Shown piece by piece: positions 28,411-32,375 of a stretch of DNA of 36,776 bases. This DNA comes from an uncultured bacterium (lineage in GTDB: Bacteria > Desulfobacterota > BSN033 > UBA1163). Position 1 is the stretch's first letter. Every line of letters begins with the position of its first letter. Both the position numbers and the translations under genes were made by a program. A model generated the notes under the pieces. The model was not told the DNA's origin, made no database searches, and saw only the letters and a program-made list of their open reading frames with translations. Location of the stretch: contig CALIBK010000033.1 in the NCBI GenBank assembly GCA_938045955.1, positions 1-36,776 on the forward strand, given 5' to 3'.

Positions 28411-30633
28411 TCATGAGGAATTCTCGAGGAGTTGGGTTGTATCATACCCGAAGTGGATCAGGAGCTCTTCGGTGGCCTTTGCGAGCATCTCCTGATATTT
28501 TTTGACATCGTGGGGATCTTCGGGTCTCACGAGGGGGAAAGCCCTTACTCTCTGGGATTTATCTTTTGACGCACCGTCCCTGATCAGATAGCGAATCCTC
28601 TCCCCGGGATGAGGTGGCATACCCACATCTTCCAGTTGTTGTGCAGCCAGGGCGGTGAGACTATCTACCTTGTAGGCACTGGGTTCCTGAGAAATCCTCT
28701 TCGAAATGAGGAGATCCTCCTGATCGATCTTTCCGCTCTTTAACCTCATTTCGGTCTCGAGAAAGATCTCTAACACCTCGGGGACCTTCGATCGATATTC
28801 CTCTACATTTTTTGCCTCCGAGAGGATCTCGAGCATTTGAATCTGGGCCTTCTGGATCAGCGGAGGAACGTCAGTCCTTCGAAAGGCCAAACCTCTCGCC
28901 TTGAGCTTTCCATCTTTGAAGAGGCCAAAATAGCGATTAGCTACAGGGCTTTCTCTGTTCCCTTTGGAAGGAAGAAAGGCGATCCATTGATAAATCCCTT
29001 CAAGAGTCATCGTCACCCCTGTGGCTTTGCTAATCCTCTCACAGAGTTCGAGAACCTCTTCCTCTTTCAGTCCCCTTTTCTGGATCCAGAGAGAATCCGT
29101 GATGGCATGAAGGAGTTCGAACCCTTCTTCTTCACAGATCTCTTTTGCTCGAAGAAGCTTCTCCCGACCAAAGGCCGTGACGGCTTCATGAGCCTCGATC
29201 CTTCCAAACCGTGCATTGCGATAACCTAAATATCCAAAGCAGGTCACAAGCATCCACTTCAGTGCGGTCTGCTTTCGGTTATAAATCTCCCGCTTCCCCC
29301 CTTCGGCCTTCCCCTCTCCAATCCCCATTTCGTGATCATACGCTTTCATCCTCCCCTTCAACCACGCCCTCCTTTTTAGGATCGGTTTAAGCGTCTTGGG
29401 AACGATCCCCTCCCGTTTTTCACAGATGGTATAACCTACTTCTGGAACCCTGTGATTCTCGCAGCATCGACAGAGGACCGTCTCTGGAGAAATATTATGA
29501 AGAACCATAATCGTGGGATACATCGATGTGAAGTCGATCTCTGCTACCTCCTCAAAGACTCCCAGTTTGGGCTGAAAGACAAGACCTCCTTTGTCGGAAA
29601 CGAGGAGATCCCATGCGCTCTTAAACCGCTCCGGTTCTCCTTTTCTCCAGGGGATAAGAATCCCTTCTTGAAAAGCCCTATCCAGCTGCATGGAGGTAAT
29701 GGCTGTCCCCGGTGAGGTGCGGGCCATCCGCTGAACGGGAATTTTGGCGAGCCGCGCAAGTTCAATCACTCCCTCCATCCCTGACTCTCCATAGACGAAG
29801 GAGTTTCGGCGATCGATGTGCCATCTTCCGAATAAAAGATGAGCGGGAGCCTGATAATAGGTCCGACCATAGGAAAAATAGGAACGCCCTTCAGACCGAA
29901 TCGACCTCTGGAGAGGATGGGGCTCGCGATCCCATGGAATGGACCTCTTCCATCTTTTCTCGAGTGAGAGGAGAAGAGGAAAGAGCGAGGCATCCCCATC
30001 TTCGGTCAGGATCACGTCAGGGTCGAAATGTCTTAAGAGTCTTACAATCTCTTCGATATCTAAAACATCCATCTCCTCCCGATATCCTTCACACTCGATT
30101 CCGAGCGAGGGATTCGAACCATTCTGATTCACAATTAGAAGTTCCATGACCCGAAGATCAGGAAAGGGTTCGTCCTCTTCCCAGACCGACTCCCCGGGAT
30201 CAGGATGGATTTGAATGAGGCAACTCTCTTCGCACTCCACCCGGCATCGACCTGTGGGAAAGACCCCTTTTTCATAAAGATAAAGCTGAGCGACTGGAAT
30301 GTCACAGTTGTAGAAGTTCAGTCTCTCCTCCCAGGGAGGAAGCAACCTTGGAAGTTGGGTGTATCGCTCCGGGGACACGATCTCTATCTCCATGACCTCA
30401 ATTTCTTCCCCGCTCCAGAACTCTCTCTTTCGGATCCATTGATACCCCGAAGCGAACCGTCTCTCTTGAAGAAAGCGAAATAGAGAAAGGAGGGTTCCTT
30501 TCTTCCCCTCGGCATAGAATCGTGGTTGGAAAGGGTCTTGAAGACGGTGAAGCCTCCCATCTTCACCTCTCACCCATAAAATCATTACCGAATCCAGGGG
30601 ATAGAGGTCGAAAAGCCAGCCCTGAAATTCCAT
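28411..30633 (-). CDS. divergent family-B DNA polymerase, exonuclease-deficient
   Basis: A 740-residue PolB. Motif A is intact: Asp367 in EIDFTSMYPTIMV. Motif B is altered: KWMLVTCFGYLG has the Lys but Val, Thr and Phe replace the usual Asn, Ser and Tyr. In motif C, AITDSLWI, the first Asp of DTD is Ile511, while the catalytically essential second Asp (513) is kept. In the N-terminal half none of the three 3'-5' exonuclease motifs can be found where expected (ELLIVNQNG in place of DIE). Proofreading should be absent; polymerase activity is still possible. It resembles archaeal PolB2 in this respect. No ribosome site precedes the ATG, which lies 12 bases after the stop of the small ORF. It is the last gene of a lexA-led operon. 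Confidence 0.88.
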   Translation of the reverse strand: MEFQGWLFDLYPLDSVMILWVRGEDGRLHRLQDPFQPRFYAEGKKGTLLSLFRFLQERRFASGYQWIRKREFWSGEEIEVMEIEIVSPERYTQLPRLLPPWEERLNFYNCDIPVAQLYLYEKGVFPTGRCRVECEESCLIQIHPDPGESVWEEDEPFPDLRVMELLIVNQNGSNPSLGIECEGYREEMDVLDIEEIVRLLRHFDPDVILTEDGDASLFPLLLSLEKRWKRSIPWDREPHPLQRSIRSEGRSYFSYGRTYYQAPAHLLFGRWHIDRRNSFVYGESGMEGVIELARLAKIPVQRMARTSPGTAITSMQLDRAFQEGILIPWRKGEPERFKSAWDLLVSDKGGLVFQPKLGVFEEVAEIDFTSMYPTIMVLHNISPETVLCRCCENHRVPEVGYTICEKREGIVPKTLKPILKRRAWLKGRMKAYDHEMGIGEGKAEGGKREIYNRKQTALKWMLVTCFGYLGYRNARFGRIEAHEAVTAFGREKLLRAKEICEEEGFELLHAITDSLWIQKRGLKEEEVLELCERISKATGVTMTLEGIYQWIAFLPSKGNRESPVANRYFGLFKDGKLKARGLAFRRTDVPPLIQKAQIQMLEILSEAKNVEEYRSKVPEVLEIFLETEMRLKSGKIDQEDLLISKRISQEPSAYKVDSLTALAAQQLEDVGMPPHPGERIRYLIRDGASKDKSQRVRAFPLVRPEDPHDVKKYQEMLAKATEELLIHFGYDTTQLLENSS

Positions 30634-30645
30634 TGTGATTACAGG

Positions 30646-30939
30646 CTACGGCTCAGTAGCAGTCGTCTGGAGGTTCTCTCTCGGCGCTTTTTCAAGGGCC
30701 CTTATCCTTTCCTTCAGTTCCGCAAGAGCCTTCTCATGTTCCAGGAGAATGGAGATCAGGATGGTCTCAAAAGGCCAGGGTCTTGAAGCGTAGACTCCTG
30801 CTTGAACATGAAGTCTTGCCTTTTCGAAGAGACGGTCGAGAAATAGTTGATCCTCTTTTCTCAGACCTCTTCGAAACTTCTTCCACTCCTCAAACTCCTC
30901 CTCCAGAATTTTGCTAAAAGGAAGAACCGTCCGGCCCAT
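30646..30939 (-). CDS. 97-residue protein of unknown function in the lexA-polB cassette
   Basis: A small, mostly helical protein. It begins MGRTVLPFSKILEEEFEEW and ends in a charged coiled-coil-like helix (HEKALAELKERIRALEKAP). A conserved-looking core is AGVYASRPWPFETILISIL. No known domain is recognised. AAGGAG lies five bases before the ATG, and the gene overlaps the RecA-like gene by 26 bases. It precedes polB by 12 bases, so it is very likely translated with both. A bridging or clamp-binding role is conceivable but pure inference. Confidence 0.7.
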   Translation of the reverse strand: MGRTVLPFSKILEEEFEEWKKFRRGLRKEDQLFLDRLFEKARLHVQAGVYASRPWPFETILISILLEHEKALAELKERIRALEKAPRENLQTTATEP

Positions 30940-31603
30940 AGAGCTCCTTCAATGCAAACCCTTTTACGAGAGTCACCCGAAACTCCTGATCCTCGAGAGA
31001 GATCTTCCAGACCAGATCGGAAAATTGGAGGAGTCTCTTCAGAAGTCGTCTTTCCCTCGATTCTACTCCTCTTCCCGTTCTCCCTTTCCGAAAAGAGAAA
31101 CTGAAGGCGAGAGAGGGCTGAAACAGAAAAAGAGAAACCCCTTCTCTCCCGATCTCCCCTATTCTTTTCAGAGATCTTTCAAAGAGAGGCCAAACCTCCC
31201 TCTCAGAGACATCTTCATCCAGAAAGGGAGTGATTGGCCCAAGAAGAATGACATACGGTTTTCGGAACGGAGGGTCATGAATCTCTCCCCCGAGGGAACT
31301 CAATCTTTCTATCAGGGTGGCCATCTGGTAGCAGGTAAAGGCCCTGGCAATAAGAATCCTCTTAAGGATCCTCTCCGGAGGAATCACTGCCCTTCTGGCA
31401 AAAGAAGAGGCCATATAAGGATCGAACCGATTGGCCCCATCTAGGATCCTGACCTGCATTCCATTGCCTGCCATCCAGCCTGCCATATAAGAAGCAATCC
31501 CTCCAACTCCTTCTCCCCAAAAGAGAATCTTCTTGGGGAAGGAACCTTTAAGATTCAGCTTCACCAAAACCTCATCAAACCAACTCTTTATGGGTGGGTT
31601 CAT
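30914..31603 (-). CDS. RecA-like (ImuA-type) protein with a degenerate P-loop
   Basis: A 229-residue protein with the RecA/RadA core order. After KILFWGEGVGGIAS, where a Walker A would have GxxxxGKS but the Lys and Ser/Thr are missing, comes QVRILDGANRFDPYMASSFA, then ARAFTCYQMATLIERL, then a Walker-B-like hydrophobic strand YVILLGPITPFLDEDV. The rest (FERSLKRI onwards) looks like the RecA core's C-terminal half. It is therefore probably not an ATPase and resembles ImuA of the SOS mutasome in general design. It follows lexA by 42 bases. A GGATGAGAG ribosome site is weak. I infer it helps to position the downstream polymerase. Confidence 0.72.
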   Translation of the reverse strand: MNPPIKSWFDEVLVKLNLKGSFPKKILFWGEGVGGIASYMAGWMAGNGMQVRILDGANRFDPYMASSFARRAVIPPERILKRILIARAFTCYQMATLIERLSSLGGEIHDPPFRKPYVILLGPITPFLDEDVSEREVWPLFERSLKRIGEIGREGVSLFLFQPSLAFSFSFRKGRTGRGVESRERRLLKRLLQFSDLVWKISLEDQEFRVTLVKGFALKELYGPDGSSF

Positions 31604-31645
31604 CTCTCATCCGAAAGACTTGATTTCCTATGTTCTATGCCCTTT

Positions 31646-32269
31646 TCAGCACTTCCGAAACACCCCGATGACCTTCCCAAGGATCTGAATCTCTCCGTCG
31701 CCCTCTTCAAACCGAATCGTCTTCCATCGCTCGTTATCGGGCCTCAGCTCGATCCTATTCCCCTTTTTAAAAAACCGCTTTACCGTCGCCTCCTCCCCCA
31801 TCAGCACCACGACTACATCCCCATTGTCTGCTGTAGATTGAGAGCGAACAATGACCACATCGTCCGGAAGAATGTAAGGGGCCATGCTATCCCCCTTCAC
31901 CCTCAGAAGGAAGACCTCCTTCCCTTCGATCCACTCCGCGGGAAGTGGAAGGCTCCCCTCAAGATGCTCCACCGCTAAGAGAGGCTTCCCTGCAGCCACC
32001 CTCCCCAGAATCGGAACCTCCCGGATCGATGGCTTTTCTTCTCCGTATCCCCTCCCCTCCCGAAAGACAAGGATCTCGAGTCCCCTCGACATGGTCCCCC
32101 GTCGTCTCAAATAGCCCTTCCTCTCCAATGCCCTGAGATGGTCTAAGACTGCTCGAGGATAGATATGAAAGGAAGCCCCGATCTCCCTGATCGAAGGGGG
32201 GTACCCCCTCTCTTTGATAAAGTTTGTAATGAAACTGAAAATCTCTCTCTGTCGATCCGTCAATTCCAT
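31646..32269 (-). CDS. lexA: LexA-type SOS repressor
   Basis: A 207-residue LexA. The winged-helix N-terminal domain (LTDRQREIFSFITNFIKERG through RALERKGYLRR) is followed by the S24 self-cleavage domain. The cleavage site Ala93-Gly94 is in GRVAAGKP, the nucleophile Ser128 is in KGDSMAPYIL and the general-base Lys164 is in EEATVKRFFKKG; all are intact, so RecA-stimulated self-cleavage is expected. The recognition helix (ASFHIYPRAVLDHL) departs from the enterobacterial one, in line with a different operator. It leads the operon lexA, RecA-like, 97-residue ORF, polB. GAGAGG lies before the ATG. It could be the only LexA or a second, dedicated one. Confidence 0.95.
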   Translation of the reverse strand: MELTDRQREIFSFITNFIKERGYPPSIREIGASFHIYPRAVLDHLRALERKGYLRRRGTMSRGLEILVFREGRGYGEEKPSIREVPILGRVAAGKPLLAVEHLEGSLPLPAEWIEGKEVFLLRVKGDSMAPYILPDDVVIVRSQSTADNGDVVVVLMGEEATVKRFFKKGNRIELRPDNERWKTIRFEEGDGEIQILGKVIGVFRKC

Positions 32270-32346
32270 GGGTCCCTCTCACTTTAAGCTCGTTATGTTT
32301 TTTAAATTACTTTCCGAACCCCCTAACTCCACTTCGAACTGAGTAA

Positions 32347-32375
32347 TATATACTATACATTTGTTTAGTTGTCAA
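32347..32375 (-). promoter_or_regulatory. lexA operon promoter
   Basis: On the minus strand, TTGACA (32375-32370) and TATATA (32352-32347) are spaced by 17 bases. The start of transcription would be near 32340, giving a leader of about 70 bases before the lexA ATG. The only strong promoter seen upstream of the four-gene cassette. Confidence 0.7.
32352..32369. promoter_or_regulatory. candidate LexA operator (18-bp dyad)
   Basis: ACTATACATTTGTTTAGT: arms ACTATACA and TGTTTAGT are inverted with one mismatch pair around TT. It fills the spacer between the -35 and -10 boxes of the lexA promoter, where a bound repressor would block RNA polymerase. It does not match the enterobacterial CTGT-N8-ACAG, Bacillus GAAC-N4-GTTC or alphaproteobacterial GTTC-N7-GTTC boxes. 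Confidence 0.6.

Follow-up and report, generated by a model that had tools for sequence, protein, structure and literature searches.

To date, the closest described relative of the operon found in the window (the whole stretch of DNA analysed here, 36,776 nucleotides from an uncultured member of the Desulfobacterota) is that of Leptospirillum ferriphilum. In this bacterium, LFML04_0990-0993 were recognised as PolB2, arCOG07300, an inactivated RadA and lexA (Makarova 2014, PMC4104785). The parts were later named PolB2, PPB2 and iRadA, and were modelled as a "PolB2 mutasome" in which one PolB2 is joined by three PPB2 and a single iRadA (Timinskas 2025, PMC11791011). In the latter study, PPB2 is a helical protein of about 90 amino acids that starts with MGRT and is modelled as a trimer. 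It was also found that lexA is enriched beside bacterial PolB2 operons, the bacterial order was reported only as iRadA-PPB2-PolB2, and the tree derived the PolB2 operon from archaea. The operator was analysed in neither account.

The Dpo2/PolB2 operon of Sulfolobus islandicus holds PolB2, PPB2 and iRadA together, as in the window (PMC7390963, PMC8764526). This system is archaeal, however, and the enriched neighbours and DNA-damage regulators in archaea are Orc1/Cdc6 homologues, not LexA. The P. putida operon lexA2-imuA-imuB-imuC (dnaE2) is a damage-inducible mutagenesis operon controlled by its own LexA2, beside another regulon that is run by LexA1 (PMC3901139, PMC5261740). Its products include a C-family polymerase, an ImuB that resembles the Y family, and an ImuA with kinship to RecA/SulA/LexA; the window locus has none of the three. 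A further parallel, drawn in PMC11791011, is Escherichia coli Pol V (UmuD'2C-RecA). This mutasome, too, is regulated by LexA and has several subunits, one of them a RecA-family protein, but it differs in its Y-family catalytic subunit, its UmuD' dimer and its active RecA.

The four genes of the window locus all lie on the minus strand between 28411 and 32269, with spacings of 42, -26 and 12 bases. They are a cassette-linked lexA (31646-32269, 207 amino acids, TIGR00498), a RecA-like gene that encodes iRadA, an inactivated RadA/Rad51-fold protein (30914-31603, 229 amino acids), a small open reading frame for PPB2 with an N-terminal MGRT arm (30646-30939, 97 amino acids) and the gene for the PolB2 polymerase (28411-30633, 740 amino acids, PF00136). 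The layout agrees exactly with that given in the first-pass annotation, which had also proposed a single promoter with a dyad in its core. This promoter was recovered on the minus strand as a -35 hexamer TTGACA (32370-32375) and a -10 hexamer TATATA (32347-32352), with the dyad filling the 17-base spacer. The same annotation had suggested that no system of this form was characterised, which cannot be upheld, since PMC4104785 and PMC11791011 describe the operon. The MGRT arm of PPB2, the Rad51/RadA fold without Walker A in iRadA, and the ITDS and D(K/R) loop motifs of PolB2 fit the published PolB2 operon. The locus is a bacterial PolB2 operon, lexA-iRadA-PPB2-PolB2, of a type already in print and not a new system. 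With the L. ferriphilum operon it shares the gene order, the MGRT arm, the inactivated RadA, a PolB2 that has lost the initial Asp of DxD, and the DK motif. No difference in content was found; what the window locus adds is a conserved operator and the evidence for a dedicated LexA. We are highly confident in reading it as a PolB2 mutasome operon that follows the published type and is under LexA control. Searches of the whole window against Rfam and for tRNAs gave no matches.

The identity of the two middle genes relies on fold and motif. By sequence only, the RecA-like protein gave a sub-threshold match to Rad51 (E 0.024), while its predicted model (pLDDT 84.6) had RadA/Rad51 ATPase domains as the best PDB matches (E 1.8e-11). 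The protein has the Rad51/RadA ATPase fold without the N-terminal domain, and the Walker A pattern GxxxxGK[ST] is absent from its 229 residues. The 97-residue PPB2 starts with MGRTVLPFS, and family searches with it gave no match. Its MGRT is aligned in the relatives, where only the first residue varies, being M or V. A clamp-binding motif in PolB2 or iRadA has been published as present in part of the PolB2 complexes; by eye, no clear QLxLF-like motif was found at the C terminus of the window PolB2 or iRadA.

PolB2 matches were obtained in 47 of the 297 genomes of the phylum, and about 40 of these are PolB2 proper. Seven matches shared only about 30-34% identity; they were taken for other polymerases of family B and left out of the count. 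The gene order, on whose conservation the first-pass annotation had made its reading depend, recurs: 25 loci of the phylum, the window included, carry all four genes on one strand in the window's order, and most of the remaining loci of the phylum are cut by contig ends. It also recurs in many other phyla. Among the best 80 of at least 535 GTDB loci, iRadA, PPB2 and PolB2 occur together in 68, and lexA is present too in 28; the titles of their records name Deltaproteobacteria/Thermodesulfobacteriota, Methylomirabilota, Nitrospirae, Chloroflexi, Acidobacteria, Ignavibacteria and others.

Several loci depart from this arrangement. In L051 (G064:C7, 8347-11156), polB2 directly follows lexA, and neither iRadA nor PPB2 was detected in 16 kb. 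In L190 (G142:C222), about 10 kb of intervening DNA separates PPB2 from polB2; in L057 (G214:C1), iRadA and PPB2 are likewise set about 4.3 kb apart. In L183 (G192:C68), of the window's family, the operator and lexA are intact, but the iRadA match is shortened and neither PPB2 nor PolB2 was detected; the cassette is apparently decaying. A seemingly split PolB2 gene in G257 proved to be a contig-end artefact. Two IMG/VR contigs (L200, L201) encode PolB2 relatives of 35-36% identity. A viral carrier of the cassette was considered and set aside, as these two distant matches were the only ones.

The near-consensus promoter of the cassette contains the candidate LexA operator, an 18-bp dyad ACTAAACAAATGTATAGT (32352-32369, minus strand) in which seven of the nine positions pair. 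Dinucleotide shuffles of the window promoter equalled this pairing in 33 of 200 cases, and the significance of the dyad in the window alone is therefore not relied on. The dyad is convincing because its offset from TTGACA is constant in five families, its arms change symmetrically and one exact copy occurs per genome. The form ACTAAACAAATGTATAGT belongs to the window's family, and the arms covary across families to give ACCATACAAATGTATGGT and ACTCATCAAATGATGAGT in others. Changes on both sides were seen in four dyad pairs, and the covariation clearly exceeds that of slid controls. It amounts to 0.195 against 0.100 ± 0.024 in shuffled sets, none of 500 being as high, but the sequences compared are kin, with a left arm that is degenerate in two families, so that these shuffle counts are not to be read as probabilities. 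In L049 (G247:C108, 5743-9644), polB2 is divergent from lexA-iRadA-PPB2 and the two units have in common one intergenic region with the dyad ATATGTATGTTAGCATACATAT; such a head-to-head placement of polB2 and lexA across one dyad is expected if the dyad controls both.

The cassette LexA scores 206.7 bits against TIGR00498 (cut-off 110.95). Its DNA-binding domain, its Ala-Gly cleavage site and its Ser/Lys dyad are all present, with the motifs AAG at 92, GDSM at 126 and TVKR at 162 intact. A second LexA followed by DinB is encoded in the window's genome (L081, G000:C65:7670-8745) under its own 22-bp dyad TAGGTAAACATATGTATACCTA. In the LexA tree, the cassette LexAs of the window's family stand apart from the dinB-linked LexAs (support 0.785 and 1.0); the deep split is weak (0.569), and no claim is therefore made on the number of lexA recruitments.

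The question is whether the cassette LexA acts on its own operon or on a wider set of genes. Nine genomes of the window's family each contain a single exact copy of the operator ACTAAACAAATGTATAGT, which in every case immediately precedes the cassette lexA (in the tenth, G237, the contig starts inside iRadA). Since this operator is unique and conserved and the second LexA with DinB lies under a different dyad, the cassette LexA is probably a private switch. In the window's family, we lean toward its being a dedicated repressor with the PolB2 operon as its sole target, insulated from the LexA-DinB circuit of the same cell. Such an SOS circuit, self-contained and serving a B-family mutasome, would be convergent with that of P. 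putida LexA2-imuABC. Alternatively, the cassette LexA may belong to an ordinary SOS regulon that spans the genome and includes recA, uvr and other genes, which we consider doubtful. This alternative draws on the core TAnACAnnTGTnTA that is common to both LexA operators of the window's genome and permits cross-talk, and on most other families, in which the cassette LexA is the sole LexA found and may act as a general LexA; for the latter reason, a private circuit is not to be generalised beyond the window's family. However, when up to two mismatches are allowed, further matches to ACTAAACAAATGTATAGT are no commoner than those of a reversed-pattern control, and the near-matches in the window's genome adjoin genes without a link to DNA repair. 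The core TAnACAnnTGTnTA occurs four times in this genome, at the two lexA promoters and at two sites without a repair gene. Neither of the two operators was found in the 8 kb around recA in the window's genome, which speaks against the ordinary regulon and makes the wider SOS link of the preferred explanation tentative.

The PolB2 protein matches DNA_pol_B (PF00136, E 8.7e-37), and its predicted model (pLDDT 88.1) matches PolB structures from archaea. The D(K/R) loop motif (D347-K348) is invariant in 26 PolB2 sequences. When PolB2 is aligned with the B-family enzyme of P. abyssi, the ExoI D/E and ExoII D positions are seen to be replaced, but the ExoIII Asp seems kept (D274). The exonuclease site is thus not wholly erased, and the loss of proofreading, as read from this alignment, is likely rather than proven. 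The first proposal for the family was a catalytically dead PolB2 that acts at forks as a structural or regulatory factor. An inactivation was inferred in PMC4104785, and the first Asp of DTD is indeed replaced in all 26 aligned members, the window having ITDS where DTDS is expected. However, the motif A Asp, the motif B Lys and the last Asp of DxD are kept, with D367, K459 and D513 invariant in the same 26 members. Moreover, the Sulfolobus Dpo2/PolB2, which has lost this first Asp as well, is active as an extender polymerase and has no exonuclease (PMC8764526); it is also damage-inducible, mutagenic and needed for targeted mutagenesis (PMC7390963). A dead window PolB2 is therefore quite improbable.

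Only one replicative DnaE was detected in the window's genome (92% complete). ImuB was not detected there, the sole Y-family match being the DinB at C65, and the signature of a lexA-imuA-imuB-dnaE2 cassette is lacking, as both ImuB and DnaE2 are absent from this genome as searched. ImuB is a Y-family polymerase homologue. The first-pass annotation had described the locus as an analogous mutasome with an ImuA-like RecA-like protein and a small protein in place of ImuB. The general analogy survives in a LexA-linked B-family polymerase, a RecA/Rad51-like partner, a small protein, a single DnaE and no ImuB. The analogy with ImuA and ImuB fails, as the former protein has a Rad51/RadA fold and the latter is the helical PPB2; no profile or fold match of either to ImuA or ImuB was found. 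A true kinship to the imuA-imuB-dnaE2 cassette, with a family-B enzyme in place of DnaE2, would account for the same logic of lexA first, a RecA-superfamily protein and the polymerase last, but it was rejected on fold and family searches and is extremely unlikely, since iRadA matches RadA/Rad51 structures, PPB2 is without a Y-family (IMS) domain and the published tree places the origin of the PolB2 operon in archaea (PMC11791011).

Taken as a LexA-controlled PolB2 mutasome, the operon very probably supplies the cell with a DNA polymerase complex for emergencies upon DNA damage, as judged from its genes and promoter. In the undamaged cell, a dimer of the cassette LexA would occupy the promoter dyad and block RNA polymerase. 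Damage would lead to RecA filaments and to self-cleavage of LexA at the Ala-Gly bond, for which the motifs are observed. LexA, iRadA, PPB2 and PolB2 would then be made together, and PPB2 and one iRadA would assemble on PolB2 as in the published model. The complex, probably without proofreading, would carry synthesis past lesions by extending mismatched primer ends, with mutations as the price, a function transferred to the window PolB2 from Sulfolobus Dpo2, a distant archaeal relative. We infer damage induction and mutagenesis for the window operon from its sequence; very likely it encodes a mutasome that DNA damage induces and that functions in the manner of lexA2-imuA-imuB-dnaE2.

Among the papers searched, we found none in which a bacterial PolB2 mutasome had been put to an experimental test. 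The conserved operator and the probably dedicated LexA offer a ready handle on bacterial PolB2 as a possible inducible mutator. The question concerns those lineages that are without ImuB-DnaE2 or Pol V, in which bacterial PolB2 may be the inducible mutator.
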